64,000 nt of DNA from Psychroserpens jangbogonensis (GTDB lineage Bacteria; Bacteroidota; Bacteroidia; Flavobacteriales; Flavobacteriaceae). Below, in pieces: positions 26,472-40,305 of the stretch. The position numbers were made by a program, and so were the translations under genes. The notes beneath the pieces were generated by a model. It worked only from the letters and a program-made list of their open reading frames with translations. It did no database searches and was not told the origin of the DNA. The stretch is from assembly GCF_000797465.1 (NCBI RefSeq), contig NZ_JSWG01000010.1, forward strand, positions 1 to 64,000, read 5' to 3'. How positions within the stretch are numbered: position 1 is the first letter of the stretch; each line of letters opens with the position of its first letter.

Positions 26472-26514
26472 TGATTAATATCATATTATACTTCTGAAAT
26501 TCAAGGTATATTGC
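26472..26514 (+). promoter_or_regulatory. CRP/FNR-type box and -7 element of the cbpA operon
   Basis: TGAT-TAAT-ATCA (26472-26483) is a CRP/FNR-type dyad. A -7-like element TATATTGC starts at 26507, 29.5 bp from the dyad centre, the spacing shared by all boxes of this kind here. A leader of about 15 bases would precede the cbpA ATG at 26534. Confidence 0.6.
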
Positions 26515-29736: not shown

Positions 29737-29779
29737 TGATTTATATCATTTCAAGAGCTCACTACATGAATTAAATTTA
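29737..29779 (+). promoter_or_regulatory. CRP/FNR-type box and -7 element of the symporter gene
   Basis: TGAT-TTAT-ATCA (29737-29748); -7-like TAAATTTA starts at 29772, again 29.5 bp from the dyad centre. The predicted leader to the ATG at 29890 is about 105 bases. Confidence 0.6.
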
Positions 29780-33693: not shown

Positions 33694-34182
33694 TTAATAC
33701 CCTAATTTGTTTTTGGTTGATGGTACTTCCCATTTTATCATTTCCTTTAAAAACTCATCAACCTTTTCAATAATTAGCTTTTCTGTAATATGTTCAGGAT
33801 TATATAACTCTAACTCTATACTACTATTCTCAATCGGTATTTGTTCTACATAAGGAAATAGTATAAACGTATGCACATCTCCACTATACGATTGAGAAAA
33901 CACCAAAGCACCACCTTGTATAAATTGATATGCTGGTATTTGATTAGTACAATCTATAAGTTCTTTTGGGAAAGAGTCAAACGTGATATTTATAGCTTCA
34001 TTGGTGCCAATCCAACTGAGTTCTTGCACTTTCCAGCCGATATCGTACTGTTTACAAATGCTTTTTAAGGTATTACTTATAAGTGTTTTGGTCTTCGTTT
34101 GCCAAATCGTTTTTTTGTCTACTACAATTTTAATTGAGGCTTTATAATCATTTACGTGCTCTACTAAGTGTTGAATTTTCAT
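33694..34182 (-). CDS. Unknown soluble protein at the end of the Mla-type operon
   Basis: 162 residues, no signal or membrane helix, family not recognised. It starts 19 bases after the MCE-domain gene on the same strand and is probably the last gene of the lipid transport operon. Contains AINITFDSFPKELIDC and SYSGDVHTFILFPYVE. Confidence 0.6.
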   Translation of the reverse strand: MKIQHLVEHVNDYKASIKIVVDKKTIWQTKTKTLISNTLKSICKQYDIGWKVQELSWIGTNEAINITFDSFPKELIDCTNQIPAYQFIQGGALVFSQSYSGDVHTFILFPYVEQIPIENSSIELELYNPEHITEKLIIEKVDEFLKEMIKWEVPSTKNKLGY

Positions 34183-34201: not shown

Positions 34202-35194
34202 CTAATCATTTTGGTTTTTTGCTTCTTTTTTCTCATCTCGCTCTAATTTTCTAAAATAGCCACGTGTTAGAAAATTATGTTTTAAAGCTTCCATGTTTTG
34301 ATTGAATTTATCAGTGCCTTCATTTATGTTTTTTAGGGTAGATTTTAAGCTATTCACTAAAGAGGTGTCCTTTACAATATAATTATAAGCACCTTCACTA
34401 GAGTTGAAGTCATCCACTACGTTGTTAATATTGTTCAAAACATTTTCAATTTCACTACTTGATGTTTCGAGATTGTTAACGACTGTTTTAAGTTTTTGAC
34501 CAGAGATGGAATCATTTAGTATCATGCCTAAAACCGTATCATCATTTGTTTTTAAACTGGAGATGATTTCATTTAATTCGTTAATAGTATTAGTAGCACC
34601 TCTACTTGCCATTTTTAGATTGTTTATCGATTGCTTGAGATCTTGAGCCATAATAGTATCGTTGAGAAGTAAACCCACAGTTCCTTTTCCTTCTAGCATG
34701 GCTGTTGTAATTTTTAGTAGATCAGAGGTGAGGATTGCAGCATTTTCTGAACTTACACTTAATGTGCTTAAAATATCATCTGCCCCAATTTTGCTGTAAG
34801 ATTCAATAATATCTCCATTGCCTATAACTTCGGAAAGACCCTTGCCAGGAACAATGTTTATAATCATATTACCAACTAATCCATCTGAACCAATTGTTGC
34901 GATGCCATTTTTTTTAATATGTGAAATGATTTTTTCTTCAATAGCCATGTCGACCTTAATAGTTGAATCATTAATCATTGTGATGTCTTTTACAGTTCCT
35001 ATACCAATACCTGAATACCTTACATTATTACCTTTTTGTAAGCCATTTACATTTTGAAAAAAAGCACTTATCGTAAATGTTTTTTTAAACATGTTTTGAC
35101 GCTGTCCTATGAGAAAAACGCCAGCTATAAAAAGAATTGTGCCAATGAGAACAAATGAACCTAATCGTAGTTTCTGTGAGTTTGAATGTTTCAT
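34202..35194 (-). CDS. MlaD-family (MCE-domain) lipid transport protein
   Basis: 330 residues: one N-terminal membrane helix (about 12-28), one MCE domain (about 40-125) containing NVRYSGIGIGTVKDI, then long amphipathic helical repeats (NLKMASRGATNTINELNEI and similar). MlaD-type proteins form rings in the periplasm that move phospholipids between membranes with the MlaE/MlaF ABC core, whose genes precede it. Confidence 0.9.
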   Translation of the reverse strand: MKHSNSQKLRLGSFVLIGTILFIAGVFLIGQRQNMFKKTFTISAFFQNVNGLQKGNNVRYSGIGIGTVKDITMINDSTIKVDMAIEEKIISHIKKNGIATIGSDGLVGNMIINIVPGKGLSEVIGNGDIIESYSKIGADDILSTLSVSSENAAILTSDLLKITTAMLEGKGTVGLLLNDTIMAQDLKQSINNLKMASRGATNTINELNEIISSLKTNDDTVLGMILNDSISGQKLKTVVNNLETSSSEIENVLNNINNVVDDFNSSEGAYNYIVKDTSLVNSLKSTLKNINEGTDKFNQNMEALKHNFLTRGYFRKLERDEKKEAKNQND

Positions 35195-35200
35195 AATTAT

Positions 35201-35962
35201 TTAGTGTTTAAAAAAGGCTTTTATTTTTGGGTCTTCATGATTTGATAGTTCGTTATATGTTCCAACGGCATAATCGATACCATCAATAAGTAAAATCATT
35301 CTGTCTGAAATCACTCGTGCACAATCCACATCATGCGTAATTATTATTGATGAGGTTTTATATTTTTTCTGAACATCATGCATAAGGAAAATGATTTCTT
35401 TTGCAGTAATAGGATCCAATCCACTTGTAGGCTCATCATATAGAATTATTTTTGGTTGTAAGATGAGTGTTCTTGCTAAAGCAACACGTCGCTTCATGCC
35501 ACCAGACAATTCCGAAGGCATTAAATCTATAGCATCTAATAATCCTACATTCTCTAAGGCTTTAACTACGAGAGCTTCTGTGTTGGAAGTCTTATCAAAC
35601 CTTTTGTAATGACGTCGTAATGGAAATTCTAAATTCTCTCTTACTGTCATAGAATCATATAATGCACTTCCTTGAAATAGAAAGCCTATGTCAGCTCTTA
35701 GTGTATCTAAGGCATCTTGAGTCAACTTAGTGATATCTTTTTTCATCAATGAAATAGAACCATTATCTGCTTCCATTAATCCTACTAAGCATTTAATCAT
35801 AACTGATTTCCCAGAGCCTGACTTACCCATAATTACTAAATTCTCTCCTTGATGAAGCTGCATGTTAAATCCGTTAAGGACATGATTGTTACCAAAACTC
35901 TTATGTAGGTTTTTAATTTCAAGAACAATATCTTGATTAGATATGTTTTTTCTATCTATCAT
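35201..35962 (-). CDS. MlaF-type ABC transporter ATPase
   Basis: 253 residues with Walker A GKSGSGKS, signature LSGGMKRRVALAR, Walker B ILYDEPTSGLDP and the H-loop IITHD. The sequence is of the MlaF/TTG2A group that powers phospholipid transport. Its start overlaps the permease stop by 4 bases and the MCE-domain gene follows after 6. Confidence 0.93.
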   Translation of the reverse strand: MIDRKNISNQDIVLEIKNLHKSFGNNHVLNGFNMQLHQGENLVIMGKSGSGKSVMIKCLVGLMEADNGSISLMKKDITKLTQDALDTLRADIGFLFQGSALYDSMTVRENLEFPLRRHYKRFDKTSNTEALVVKALENVGLLDAIDLMPSELSGGMKRRVALARTLILQPKIILYDEPTSGLDPITAKEIIFLMHDVQKKYKTSSIIITHDVDCARVISDRMILLIDGIDYAVGTYNELSNHEDPKIKAFFKH

Positions 35963-36741
35963 AAATCGTAAAAAATATCAGTTACAAAGACCGCTATGAA
36001 ATCAATAATAAATAACAACAAGGATGTAAATACAACAGCTGAATTTGCTGCTTTCCCAACGCCAGCTGTTCCTTTTTTACAGTAATACCCTTTAAAGCAA
36101 CCAACAAGTCCAATGGCTAAGCCAAAAAAGAAAGATTTAATTGTTGCTGGCATAATATCTCCAAATTTTAATGCGTCGAATACTTGATTAAAATAGAGAA
36201 CGAAGGATACATTTCCTTTTACATTTTCTACTAAAAAGGAGCCAAATAATGCAATAGCATCTCCAATTATCACTAATAATGGCAACATTAATGTCACTGC
36301 TAATACTCGTGTAACCACCAGATATTTGAAGGGATTAGTACCTGAGACTTCCATGGCATCAATTTGCTCTGTAACACGCATCGAGCCGATTTCTGCACCT
36401 AAGCCAGAGCCAATTCGACCAGCACAAACTAATGCAGTTAATATAGGTCCTATTTCTCTAACAATAGAAATACTTACCATAGATGGCATCCAAGATACAG
36501 CACCAAACTCCATAAGAGTTGGTCGTGTTTGTAGAGTTAAAACTAAACCTATAATGAAACCAGTAATACCTACAAGTAATAGAGATTTATTCCCCATGTT
36601 GTAGCATTGGTTTAGTAATTCTTTAAGCTCAAAAGGACGTTTAAATGTTTCTTTAAAAAAACGAGCAGTAAAATATGATAGCTCTCCTATTTCAATTAAG
36701 AAAACATCCAATTGCGCTTTCATTTTAGTTATATCTGGCAT
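35959..36741 (-). CDS. MlaE-type ABC transporter permease
   Basis: 260 residues from the ATG at 36741 (MPDITKMKAQLDVF). The family marks are visible: FIIGLVLTLQTRP, REIGPILTALVCAGRIGSGLGAEIGSM and MRVTEQIDAMEVSGTNPFKYLV. It forms the membrane core of the lipid transporter. A longer frame beginning with TTG at 36765 would place the start inside the -7 element TACATTTG (36763-36770), so the ATG at 36741 is preferred, giving a leader of about 17 bases. Confidence 0.92.
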   Translation of the reverse strand: MPDITKMKAQLDVFLIEIGELSYFTARFFKETFKRPFELKELLNQCYNMGNKSLLLVGITGFIIGLVLTLQTRPTLMEFGAVSWMPSMVSISIVREIGPILTALVCAGRIGSGLGAEIGSMRVTEQIDAMEVSGTNPFKYLVVTRVLAVTLMLPLLVIIGDAIALFGSFLVENVKGNVSFVLYFNQVFDALKFGDIMPATIKSFFFGLAIGLVGCFKGYYCKKGTAGVGKAANSAVVFTSLLLFIIDFIAVFVTDIFYDL

Positions 36742-36762
36742 AATAGCTAATAAGAGTCTGAT

Positions 36763-36836
36763 CAAATGTATTTGAATTGAGGCATTTGTAAAATGATATA
36801 TATCATTTCAGTATTCTGGGATTAGAGATACTTTTA
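36763..36836. promoter_or_regulatory. Bidirectional CRP/FNR-type box with two promoters
   Basis: AAATGATATATATCATTT is a perfect 18-bp palindrome containing TGAT-ATAT-ATCA (36794-36805). To the right a -7-like TACTTTTA starts at 36829; to the left, on the minus strand, TACATTTG (a perfect TAnnTTTG) starts at 36770. Both begin exactly 29.5 bp from the dyad centre, so one box can serve the HMA-peroxiredoxin operon and the Mla-type operon. Confidence 0.72.
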
Positions 36837-36856
36837 GATATTAATAAAATCAAACT

Positions 36857-37126
36857 ATGAGAACTACAGTTCATATACAAAACCTAAAATGTTGTGGTTG
36901 TAAAAGAACTATAATCAATAGGCTTTTAGAAGTCAAGCATATTAGTGATGTAGAAGTAAATAATGAAAAGAATACAGTCTCTTTTGATTATTATACCAAT
37001 CGAGATTTTGAAGCTGCTAAACATTTACTATCTAGAATAGGTTACCCTATAGTAGGAAAAGAAAATAAACTAAAGACGAAAGCACAATCTTATTTGAGTT
37101 GTGCTATTGGTAGAATTAAAAAATGA
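36857..37126 (+). CDS. HMA-type metal-binding protein
   Basis: 89 residues: a ferredoxin-like HMA fold with KCCGCKR, i.e. a C-x2-C pair (C12, C15) in the usual loop, and SRIGYP near the end of the fold. Like Atx1/CopZ it may carry Cu(I) in the cytosol, although the sequence around the cysteines (LKCCGC rather than MxCxxC) is atypical. First gene of an operon with a peroxiredoxin and an L,D-transpeptidase. Confidence 0.82.
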   Translation: MRTTVHIQNLKCCGCKRTIINRLLEVKHISDVEVNNEKNTVSFDYYTNRDFEAAKHLLSRIGYPIVGKENKLKTKAQSYLSCAIGRIKK

Positions 37127-37130
37127 AACA

Positions 37131-37868
37131 ATGGAAACAATGCAAGAACAAGAGCAAATTACAGCAATGCCAAGAATTGGCGACAAGGCACCTGAGTTTA
37201 AAGCCATAACAACACAAGGAGAGATTAACTTCCCTATTGATTATAAAGGAGAGTGGGTTATTCTATTTAGTCATCCAGCCGATTTCACTCCAGTATGTAC
37301 AAGTGAATTTATGACCTTTGCACATCTTGAAGACAAGTTCAATAAAGCTAATTGTAAATTGGTTGGACTTTCAATTGATGGTTTATATAGTCATATTGCT
37401 TGGTTAAGAACTATTAAAGAAAAAATTAAGTTCAATGGCATGAAAAACGTTGAAGTCAAGTTTCCTTTGATTGAAGATATTACAATGGAAGTTGCTAAAA
37501 AGTACGGCATGATTCAACCAGGAGAAAGTAAAACACAAGCTGTTAGAGCTGTGTTTTTTATAGATTCAAAAGGAACGATTAGAGCTATTATTTACTATCC
37601 TTTAAGTTTAGGAAGAAATTTTGATGAAATATATCGTGCATTAATTGCCATGCAAACTTCCGATGAATTTTCTGTAGCTACTCCTGCAGATTGGAATCCA
37701 GGAGATGATGTGATTGTCTCTCCAGCAGGATCTTGTGGAGTTGCTGAAGAGCGAATGAACTCTAAAGACGAATTAAAATGCGAAGACTGGTTCTTCTGCA
37801 CTAAACCTTTGGATAAAGACGAGGTTTTAGACAAAATTTTGAAAAAGACAAAACTACTTGCTGAGTGA
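37131..37868 (+). CDS. Peroxiredoxin of the Prx6/archaeal-type AhpC group
   Basis: 245 residues from the ATG at 37131, 5 bases after the HMA stop; the upstream in-frame GTG at 37101 is inside the HMA gene. Peroxidatic C56 in SHPADFTPVCTSEF. The long C-terminal arm holds C202, C217 and C223; KCEDWFFC resembles the resolving-cysteine pair of Aeropyrum thiol peroxidase. It reduces peroxides in the cytosol. The spare cysteines suggest a two-cysteine cycle (inference). Confidence 0.93.
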   Translation: METMQEQEQITAMPRIGDKAPEFKAITTQGEINFPIDYKGEWVILFSHPADFTPVCTSEFMTFAHLEDKFNKANCKLVGLSIDGLYSHIAWLRTIKEKIKFNGMKNVEVKFPLIEDITMEVAKKYGMIQPGESKTQAVRAVFFIDSKGTIRAIIYYPLSLGRNFDEIYRALIAMQTSDEFSVATPADWNPGDDVIVSPAGSCGVAEERMNSKDELKCEDWFFCTKPLDKDEVLDKILKKTKLLAE

Positions 37869-38803
37869 AACGATGGGTCTTAATTATACATGCTATTGCA
37901 CTATTCCTATATATCGTGTCTGTAAATGTTACTAATACAGAAACCTTGATATCTAAGGAAACAATTGATTTAAACCAAGTTTACATTCAACAAGATACTG
38001 TAAGCTTGGTTTCAATTGATACATCTATTACTATTGAGAATTATTTTCATTTTATAGATTCTATTGTCAAAACATATGATTCTATTACATCCTATAAGTT
38101 AACTGAACATATTTTAGTTCGCGCTAATTCATGGATTATAGATACACTTCAGAATACAGATTATTATCGAATGAAAGCTAGAGATTCATTTGTATACGAT
38201 CAAAAAAAGATGATTATTTTGCCAAAAGGAAATTTTATAGTAATTCCTGATTCAATTCAAACTAAAAAATTATTGAGTTCATTTCATAAGACAAGAATAG
38301 ACATAAATATCCCTGAATTTAAACTTCGTATTTATGAAGATACCATTCGGCTTTATGAATTTCCTGTTAGAGTAGGTAGGGATGAGAAAAAATATTTGGA
38401 GATGTCTGGTAGAGTACAGGATTTAAAAACGAAAAAAGGAGAAGGTTACATAGTTAGTCATGTGCGGAATCCGAGATACGTAAACCCTGTAAATAATCAT
38501 GAGTATTTTGTAACAAGAAGAGACGATAAAAAAGTGACTAAGTTGCCACAAGTCCCTTTTATTGAAACCGAAATCAATGGTATTAGAAACGGACAATTAA
38601 TTCATCCTACTACAAATCCAGTAACTTTAGGAAAAGCTTATTCTAATGGTTGTATTGGAACTAGAGAAGCCGATGCTTGGATGATTTATTATTATGCTCC
38701 AATTGGTACTAAAGTGAAAATTCGATATGATTTAAATATAGTTGATGAAGAAGGTAAAGCTTTAGTTCTAAAAGATATTTATGGATACAATAATAAAAAT
38801 TAA
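37865..38803 (+). CDS. L,D-transpeptidase (YkuD domain)
   Basis: 312 residues from a GTG that overlaps the peroxiredoxin stop by 4 bases. An N-terminal hydrophobic anchor (about 5-20) and a C-terminal YkuD domain (about 140-290): IPEFKLRIYEDTIRLYEFPVRVG, IHPTTNP with the conserved His, and NGCIGTRE with the catalytic Cys. The usual SHGCIRM is altered here (N for H, GTRE for RM). Makes or edits 3-3 peptidoglycan cross-links or anchors proteins in the periplasm. Confidence 0.88.
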   Translation: MKRWVLIIHAIALFLYIVSVNVTNTETLISKETIDLNQVYIQQDTVSLVSIDTSITIENYFHFIDSIVKTYDSITSYKLTEHILVRANSWIIDTLQNTDYYRMKARDSFVYDQKKMIILPKGNFIVIPDSIQTKKLLSSFHKTRIDINIPEFKLRIYEDTIRLYEFPVRVGRDEKKYLEMSGRVQDLKTKKGEGYIVSHVRNPRYVNPVNNHEYFVTRRDDKKVTKLPQVPFIETEINGIRNGQLIHPTTNPVTLGKAYSNGCIGTREADAWMIYYYAPIGTKVKIRYDLNIVDEEGKALVLKDIYGYNNKN

Positions 38804-38843: not shown

Positions 38844-39617
38844 TTACCTGTTCTCAGTATATCTATTAAACAAGCTTAATTGTAAAGACTTTCTAGCATC
38901 TTTTAACAGTTGTTCAACTTCTTCAAGTGTATTATTTCTTATGAGCGCAATTTCTCCTAATTCTAAGTGTTGGTTTGTAAACAAATCAAAGACATTATTC
39001 ATATCTAAAGGCAAATTTTGTAATACCATTGCTATATGGTTTTGGATTTTTTCTTCATCTAATTTCTTGTCTAATTTTTCAGCCAAAGCTTTCTCATTAT
39101 CTTCTACAAATACATGGTTTAATGTATAATTATTATGGTTGTAAGAGATATCATCTAAATCTTCAATCATAACTAAATCTCCGTCTCCATCTGTGCTAAA
39201 TTTCTCTTGCATTTCATCCCATTCCCGTTTAGAGTAGTCGTCAATATTCTTAAAGAAAAAATCATTAAATTCTTCTTCCACAATGATATCCTCCAACAAT
39301 TGATTAGTTCTTTTGAACAACCAGAGGTAAAAATTCTTTTCATTTTCAACATCTTCAATGTTATCGTAAATCTCAATAAATAGCTGATCAATGAAATCAT
39401 CGGCTTTATACTTTCCTTTAGAAAAGTGACCTTTTATTATTGCTGTATTCAATCTTCCATTGACATACGTTCTTATTTCTGGCATTATTTTTAATACCAA
39501 TTCATTAAAGGAAGCTTGATTGCCTTCCTTCTTTAATTGAATGAGATTTGAAAATGTTTTGGTCACGAAAAGACGGAACTCCTTTTTGTTTTGGTAATAA
39601 GAAATATTTGTTTGCAT
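38844..39617 (-). CDS. Divergent sigma-70-family-like protein
   Basis: 257 residues. A region-2-like block (KADDFIDQLFIEIYDNIEDVENEKNFYLWLFKRT, about 70-105) and a C-terminal region-4-like helix-turn-helix (LPLDMNNVFDLFTNQHLELGEIALIRNNTLEEVEQLLKDAR, about 200-245) are joined by an acidic linker (about 110-195), unusual for an ECF factor. It may be a sigma factor or a relative that has lost the function. A CRP/FNR-type box lies 66 bases upstream. Confidence 0.68.
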   Translation of the reverse strand: MQTNISYYQNKKEFRLFVTKTFSNLIQLKKEGNQASFNELVLKIMPEIRTYVNGRLNTAIIKGHFSKGKYKADDFIDQLFIEIYDNIEDVENEKNFYLWLFKRTNQLLEDIIVEEEFNDFFFKNIDDYSKREWDEMQEKFSTDGDGDLVMIEDLDDISYNHNNYTLNHVFVEDNEKALAEKLDKKLDEEKIQNHIAMVLQNLPLDMNNVFDLFTNQHLELGEIALIRNNTLEEVEQLLKDARKSLQLSLFNRYTENR

Positions 39618-39651: not shown

Positions 39652-39694
39652 TAAAGATGCGAACTTGAGACCTGGATTGAAATGATATATATCA
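39652..39694 (-). promoter_or_regulatory. CRP/FNR-type box upstream of the sigma-like gene
   Basis: TGAT-ATAT-ATCA at 39683-39694 (AAATGATATATATCAGTT, nearly the same as the box at 36794). On the minus strand CATCTTTA starts at 39659, 29.5 bp from the dyad centre; it is one more step from the -7 consensus than the other elements. Confidence 0.5.
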
Positions 39695-39770: not shown

Positions 39771-40053
39771 TTATACTATTTCAACTAATTCTGTCAGTTC
39801 ATTTTCGGTTTCCATACCTGAATCCCAACAATTTAAATTATAAACAGTTGTATCTGCAATGTTTGTCAACGCTTCTTTAGTTAGAAAGGCGTGATGAGCT
39901 GTTATAAGTGCGTTTGTCATTGCATTCAATCTTAATAGAAGATCATCTTCTGGTAGGTCTTGTGAATGATCTTTAAAGAAGACTCCTTTTTTCATTTTTA
40001 TAGACATCATTACCCAAAGCTCCAATCTTACCTCTTTTAAGGCCTTCGATAAC
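39771..40053 (-). pseudogene. C-terminal fragment of D-lactate dehydrogenase (2-hydroxyacid dehydrogenase), truncated and frameshifted
   Basis: From the right end, one frame reads DVIEGLKRGKIGALGNDVY-KNEK and stops; the other continues GVFFKDHSQDLPEDDLL, ITAHHAFLTKEALTNIADTT and VYNLNCWD to the stop at 39771. Together they match the last ~95 residues of LdhA-type enzymes, including the catalytic-His region (GHQAF in the family; here AHHAF). Removing one A from the six-A run near 39988 would restore the frame. The N-terminal ~235 residues, with the Rossmann motif, are gone. The cut lies at the junction with the cusB fragment. Confidence 0.85.
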
Positions 40054-40305
40054 ATCTTCCGTTGGTTCTATTTCACATGCAACTGATATAAAAGCTCAAA
40101 GAAATCATTTTAAGCGTTTGTCATCATATTTAATAGGTGCTGTTGAAACCTTTGGAATAAACGAAACAGTGTATAGCCAATTTTGTCCTATGGCAGATAA
40201 TGACAATGGCGCATATTGGTTAAGTAGAGACGAAAAAGTAGTCAACCCATACTTTGGAGACGCGATGCTGAAATGTGGTAGTGTGAAACAAGTAATAGAA
40301 TAGAA
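40054..40305 (+). pseudogene. Duplicated 3' fragment of the CusB-type gene
   Basis: 252 bp identical to 25419-25670 apart from three substitutions (two change residues: S to N, S to G). The frame is open from the junction to the stop and gives the last ~82 residues of the adaptor (part of the DUF3347 domain), without promoter or start. The 5' break abuts the ldh remnant; the 3' break is 2 bases past the stop codon. Confidence 0.95.

Follow-up and report, generated by a model that had tools for sequence, protein, structure and literature searches.

A symmetric Crp/FNR-type box predicted to serve two divergent promoters in Psychroserpens jangbogonensis

The stretch of DNA analysed here, termed the window, comprises 64,000 nucleotides of the Psychroserpens jangbogonensis genome and contains two operons that are transcribed away from a short shared intergenic region (outlined in table 1). 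The left operon encodes components of an Mla-type lipid-transport system and ends with a 162-aa protein of unassigned function, a homologue of which adjoins mlaD in loci L227 and L236. The right operon encodes a small HMA-domain protein, a peroxiredoxin and a YkuD-domain protein. Boxes of the same type as the one between these operons lie elsewhere in the window, and further boxes in this genome precede genes for cytochrome c, a universal stress protein, formate-THF ligase and OmpW. A D-lactate dehydrogenase-like open reading frame (39771–40055) was considered as the target of the box at 39683 and rejected, being a C-terminal fragment that the box fits in neither direction. The region from 39771 to 40300 carries apparent gene remnants, including this C-terminal part and, on the opposite strand, what by eye is the end of a DUF3347/CusB-like gene.

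Table 1. Operator, promoter elements, genes, related boxes and candidate regulators. Coordinates refer to the window unless a contig is named.
Feature	Position	Strand	Remarks
Shared operator AAATGATATATATCATTT, perfect palindrome, Crp/FNR-type	36791..36808		core TGAT-N4-ATCA; centre 36799.5
Predicted mla promoter, -7 element TACATTTG	36763..36770	-	6/6 to TAnnTTTG; faces mlaE
Predicted HMA-Prx promoter, -7 element TACTTTTA	36829..36836	+	5/6 to TAnnTTTG; faces HMA-peroxiredoxin-YkuD
mlaE, MlaE-family lipid ABC permease, left operon gene 1	35959..36741	-	PF02405 4.9e-74; TIGR00056 above cut-off
mlaF-like ABC ATPase	35201..35962	-	PF00005
mlaD/MCE-domain protein	34202..35194	-	PF02470
162-aa protein, last in left operon	33694..34182	-	no family match
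HMA-domain small protein, 89 aa, right operon	36857..37126	+	PF00403
1-Cys-type peroxiredoxin, right operon	37134..37868	+	NF009668 328 bits, cut-off 211
YkuD-domain L,D-transpeptidase-like protein, right operon	37865..38803	+	PF03734
One-sided box of the same type	26472..26483	+	upstream of dnaJ-merR-metal P-type ATPase
One-sided box of the same type	29737..29748	+	upstream of SDF symporter; TAAATTTA at 29.5 bp
Box of the same type	39683..39694	-	upstream of 38844-39617; in-register -7 only weak (CATCTTTA)
Receiver-Crp fusion regulator	G000:C61:119948-121000 (L042:14949-16004)		PAS histidine kinase just upstream
FNR-like protein (L016)	G000:C7:84918-85592		candidate activator 2

Activators of the Crp/FNR family occupy position -41.5 at class II promoters. 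The box in the window has the TGA-N6-TCA palindrome of such promoters, and the inner edges of the two -7 elements each lie exactly 29.5 bp from its centre; the right-hand element ends in A rather than the G of TAnnTTTG. The coordinates and equal spacing given for the 18-bp palindrome and its flanking elements in the first-pass annotation are correct. The sigma-A -7 box of Flavobacterium psychrophilum, TAnnTTTG, spans -12 to -5 (PMC9723704), so a distance of 29.5 bp to the T at -12 places the box centre at -41.5 of both predicted sigma-A promoters, which is Crp/FNR class II geometry. Transcription is predicted to start at 36758 towards mlaE, with a leader of 17 nt, and at 36841 towards the HMA gene, with a leader of 16 nt; the two predicted starts are 83 bp apart. 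Both promoters are thereby predicted to stand in activating register with one box, the arrangement of single-site divergent activation.

The spacing between box and -7 element exceeds chance. In this genome, TGATNNNNATCA followed by TAnnTTTG at 22–24 bp has eight matches, against none for the reversed pattern, and across 149 Flavobacteriaceae genomes the box with an in-register TAnnTTTG occurs 521 times, against 35 for the reversed control. Counts of TAnnTTT at 29.5 bp reach 22 in the stretches from this genome (background 0.66) and 257 in all sampled loci of Flavobacteriaceae DNA (about 4.9 per other offset). Among boxes with an in-register promoter on one side, 18 oriented cases, which represent nine distinct boxes, have another on the far side, against 1.9 expected. 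It had been claimed that the remaining boxes are less symmetric and have a single promoter in register; this holds in the P. jangbogonensis genome except at C44:34640-34651 (L043:9641), where another two-sided box has TAAATTTG at 29.5 bp and TAAGTTTG at 28.5 bp. This box has no clear flanking protein gene, and an Rfam search there returned only two nearby tRNAs, which leaves no known RNA family as its target; it is possible that it serves divergent small RNAs.

Symmetry of the box is likely to be linked to the number of promoters it serves. Half-sites were counted in 168 one-promoter boxes, each oriented to its promoter; related loci are included, so the percentages are not independent. In the promoter-proximal half TCA is followed by T in 92%, and in the promoter-distal half TGA is preceded by A in 54% and by C in 38%. 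The predicted operator rule is that the proximal half (ATCAT) is strict and the distal half looser. The perfect symmetry of the box in the window would then arise because it faces two promoters and joins two proximal halves.

Relatives were compared using the orthologous mlaE loci of 49 genomes and seven HMA-bearing loci. A box at the matching place relative to mlaE is kept in most of the approximately 55 relatives, and nearly all of those that retain it also keep TAnnTTTG/A at 29.5 bp on the mla side. HMA-bearing relatives keep TAnnTTTA at 29.5 bp from the box on the HMA side, the sole exception among close HMA-adjacent relatives being Psychroserpens burtonensis (L096), where the HMA gene is relocated. 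Approximately half of the compared loci carry two boxes; the additional one usually lies 23 bp beyond the first and 29.5 bp from the -7 element of the divergent promoter. The earlier proposal that one site serves both operons is well supported by the statistics of spacing and by the conserved placement of the two promoters around the box, but does not extend to the roughly half of relatives that have one box per promoter.

One box with both promoters in register is found in the window, in Arcticiflavibacter (L095), in a Winogradskyella MAG (L097), in L140 (genome G038) and in L106 (genome G106). In an alignment with relatives that have two boxes, the window, L095 and L097 each show a gap of one box period. 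P. burtonensis retains an apparent decayed second box. In the MlaE tree, which is the tree of one gene, one-box loci are scattered inside clades of two-box loci, and the starred branches force five label changes; from this tree we claim at least three origins of the one-box state, in the clade of the window, in G038 and in G106. As judged from these comparisons, the shared box is a derived and recurrent state, and the single site most likely arose by fusion of two adjacent boxes, each of which formerly served one gene. Loss of the roughly 23 bp that make up one box-to-box period would merge the two boxes, and both promoters would automatically stay in register. In another genome of the set, the mla locus is present twice (G125:C1:3350700 and 3885072), with the same upstream boxes at both copies.

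The P. jangbogonensis genome has 17 cNMP-binding matches, and two of these proteins share the recognition-helix pattern TE(S/T)xIR: a receiver-Crp fusion and an FNR-like protein. The receiver-Crp fusion combines a receiver domain that has the phospho-acceptor Asp (PF00072), a cNMP-type domain (PF00027) and HTH_Crp (PF13545) in one chain, the composition of a response regulator with a Crp output, and its residues D52, K104 and E317/I320/R321 are invariant across 30 orthologues. Among the NCBIfam matches shown for this protein none passes its cut-off, and among the chains of solved structures shown none spans both parts. In the FNR-like protein C4, C7, C29 and C106 are invariant across 15 orthologues, and one of them, by eye, we take to match the place of E. 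coli C122. The mean number of boxes per genome among the 149 Flavobacteriaceae is 5.75 with both regulators, 3.87 with receiver-Crp only, 3.26 with the FNR-like protein only and 0.83 with neither.

The co-occurrence and linkage of each regulator with Mla decide which is preferred. Receiver-Crp is present in 42 of 49 genomes with Mla and 24 of 100 without it (OR 19, p 5e-13, kinship between genomes ignored), and in 21 of 42 genomes Mla lies within 20 kb of its gene. In Flavobacteriaceae the kinase, receiver-Crp, a universal stress protein and Mla form a shared neighbourhood, a conserved stress-type island centred on the receiver-Crp gene, often with DnaJ-MerR, a CDP-alcohol transferase and a WG-repeat protein, and sometimes with a P-type ATPase. 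Of 20 sampled islands, 18 hold at least three in-register boxes, and 15 of 20 genomes reach at least five per 20 kb. In P. jangbogonensis this island is split over contigs C2 and C61, and the regulator is on a different contig from the window. The mla box is kept without a detected receiver-Crp gene in G008, G062, G138 and G147 (with incomplete assemblies in two cases), and receiver-Crp is present with a boxless mlaE in G119, G146, G069, G098 and G134. Receiver-Crp, together with its PAS histidine kinase, appears the likeliest activator at the mla locus because of this co-occurrence and linkage.

The FNR-like protein could instead be the main activator, in which case both operons would belong to the low-oxygen response proper. 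Its invariant cysteines, the recognition-helix pattern it shares with receiver-Crp and the excess of boxes in genomes with the FNR-like protein only (3.26, against 0.32 for the control pattern) point in this direction, yet the reading is doubtful: across the 149 genomes the FNR-like gene shows no association with Mla (OR 1.2, p 0.6, kinship ignored), in none of 31 genomes does it lie within 20 kb of Mla (the smallest distance on a shared contig is 41.9 kb), and the mla box with its -7 element is kept in many genomes that lack it, such as G090, G108, G130 and G143. Plain FNR was rejected as the lead assignment on these grounds of co-occurrence and linkage. The FNR-like protein nevertheless probably reads the same box as receiver-Crp, and may act on it under low oxygen.

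Taken as a whole, the box is probably the operator of a Crp/FNR-family activator, with receiver-Crp the likeliest candidate; it would stem from box fusion and lie at -41.5 of two class II promoters arranged back to back. One bound dimer would recruit RNA polymerase to either promoter, and the mla lipid-transport and HMA-peroxiredoxin-YkuD operons would be induced by the same signal. It is improbable that the site activates only the mla promoter and that the right-hand match is a remnant or a coincidence; the imperfect right-hand -7 element and the several relatives that retain just the mla-side box would suit this, but the conserved HMA-side register and the recurrence of two-sided boxes speak against it. 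Crp/FNR proteins are also able to repress. Bidirectional promoters can show interference (PMC12825309), so the main ligand of the box might be a repressor, or a regulator of dual function, that shuts off either promoter or both; this is highly improbable, however, as the site lies at -41.5, away from the -7 elements and the starts, and its spacing is fixed in hundreds of cases, as activation predicts.

Activation from the shared box need not mean that both promoters fire together. With starts 83 bp apart, class II polymerases would overlap: each would make its upstream contacts within the spacer of the opposite promoter. On this geometry we expect initiation to alternate between the two sides rather than to occur on both at once, and the polymerases probably compete. 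Such competition is documented for activated bidirectional promoters in E. coli (PMC12825309). Co-activation of the two operons from a single site, as first suggested, is therefore doubtful in the sense of simultaneous firing on one DNA molecule, and may be better understood as co-induction that is coupled.

One activator site for divergent promoters is a known arrangement. Divergent promoters served from one CRP site are established in a model system (El-Robh and Busby 2002, as cited in PMC3105977), and 11 natural E. coli cases are listed (PMC3105977). These cases and the window have in common one activator dimer and two divergent promoters, whereas here both promoters are in exact class II register and relatives still show the ancestral pair of boxes. 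E. coli CRP/FNR class II promoters likewise have a dyad-symmetric box with a TGA-N6-TCA core at -41.5, but here the -7 element is the Bacteroidota TAnnTTTG/A, the flanking base is A/C rather than the T of TTGAT, and the likely activator is a receiver-Crp fusion. Warman/Grainger bidirectional promoters (PMC12825309) resemble the locus in divergent transcription from a symmetric region and in possible RNA polymerase competition; there the promoter DNA itself is pseudo-symmetric, while here the -7 elements lie 59 bp apart on either side of the box and belong to two separate promoters that have nothing but the activator box in common. The FNR-like candidate has four invariant cysteines, which may be cluster ligands as in the FNR oxygen sensor, but scores 91 bits against the NCBIfam Fnr (NF008365) cut-off of 228 and is unlinked to this Mla operon. 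A search of openly licensed PMC text returned neither a flavobacterial FNR/Crp regulon described with this box nor a paper on the receiver-Crp regulator. Within the reach of that search, the regulator assignment, the half-site rule and the recurrence of box fusion are new.

In a broader reading, which we hold with as much doubt as belief, tandem class II boxes between divergent genes would repeatedly merge into a single symmetric operator, given that any recombination between the boxes keeps the two promoters in register. Two promoters that could be tuned separately would become a coupled, polymerase-competing pair, read by the receiver-Crp regulator of a conserved flavobacterial stress island that shares its operator with an FNR-type sensor. 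Recurrent two-to-one fusion would offer a simple route to the coupling of divergent operons, and this promoter pair occurs naturally with two boxes and with one, which allows the two forms to be compared. For a large, little-studied marine family, these results predict a regulon and an operator rule, and put forward the receiver-Crp protein as candidate regulator.

Two-sided boxes are also found at other loci. At L200:1537 a single box with promoters on both sides lies between what by eye are a putative lipoprotein gene and an Rrf2-like regulator gene, and overlapping pairs that resemble it occur in G034, G082, G125 and G145. In two genomes, two-sided boxes (L230:1058 and L107:2420) have an apparent CBS-domain protein, assigned by eye, on one side and a conserved small protein (M(K/R)TKTIIELLTLSSS...) on the other.
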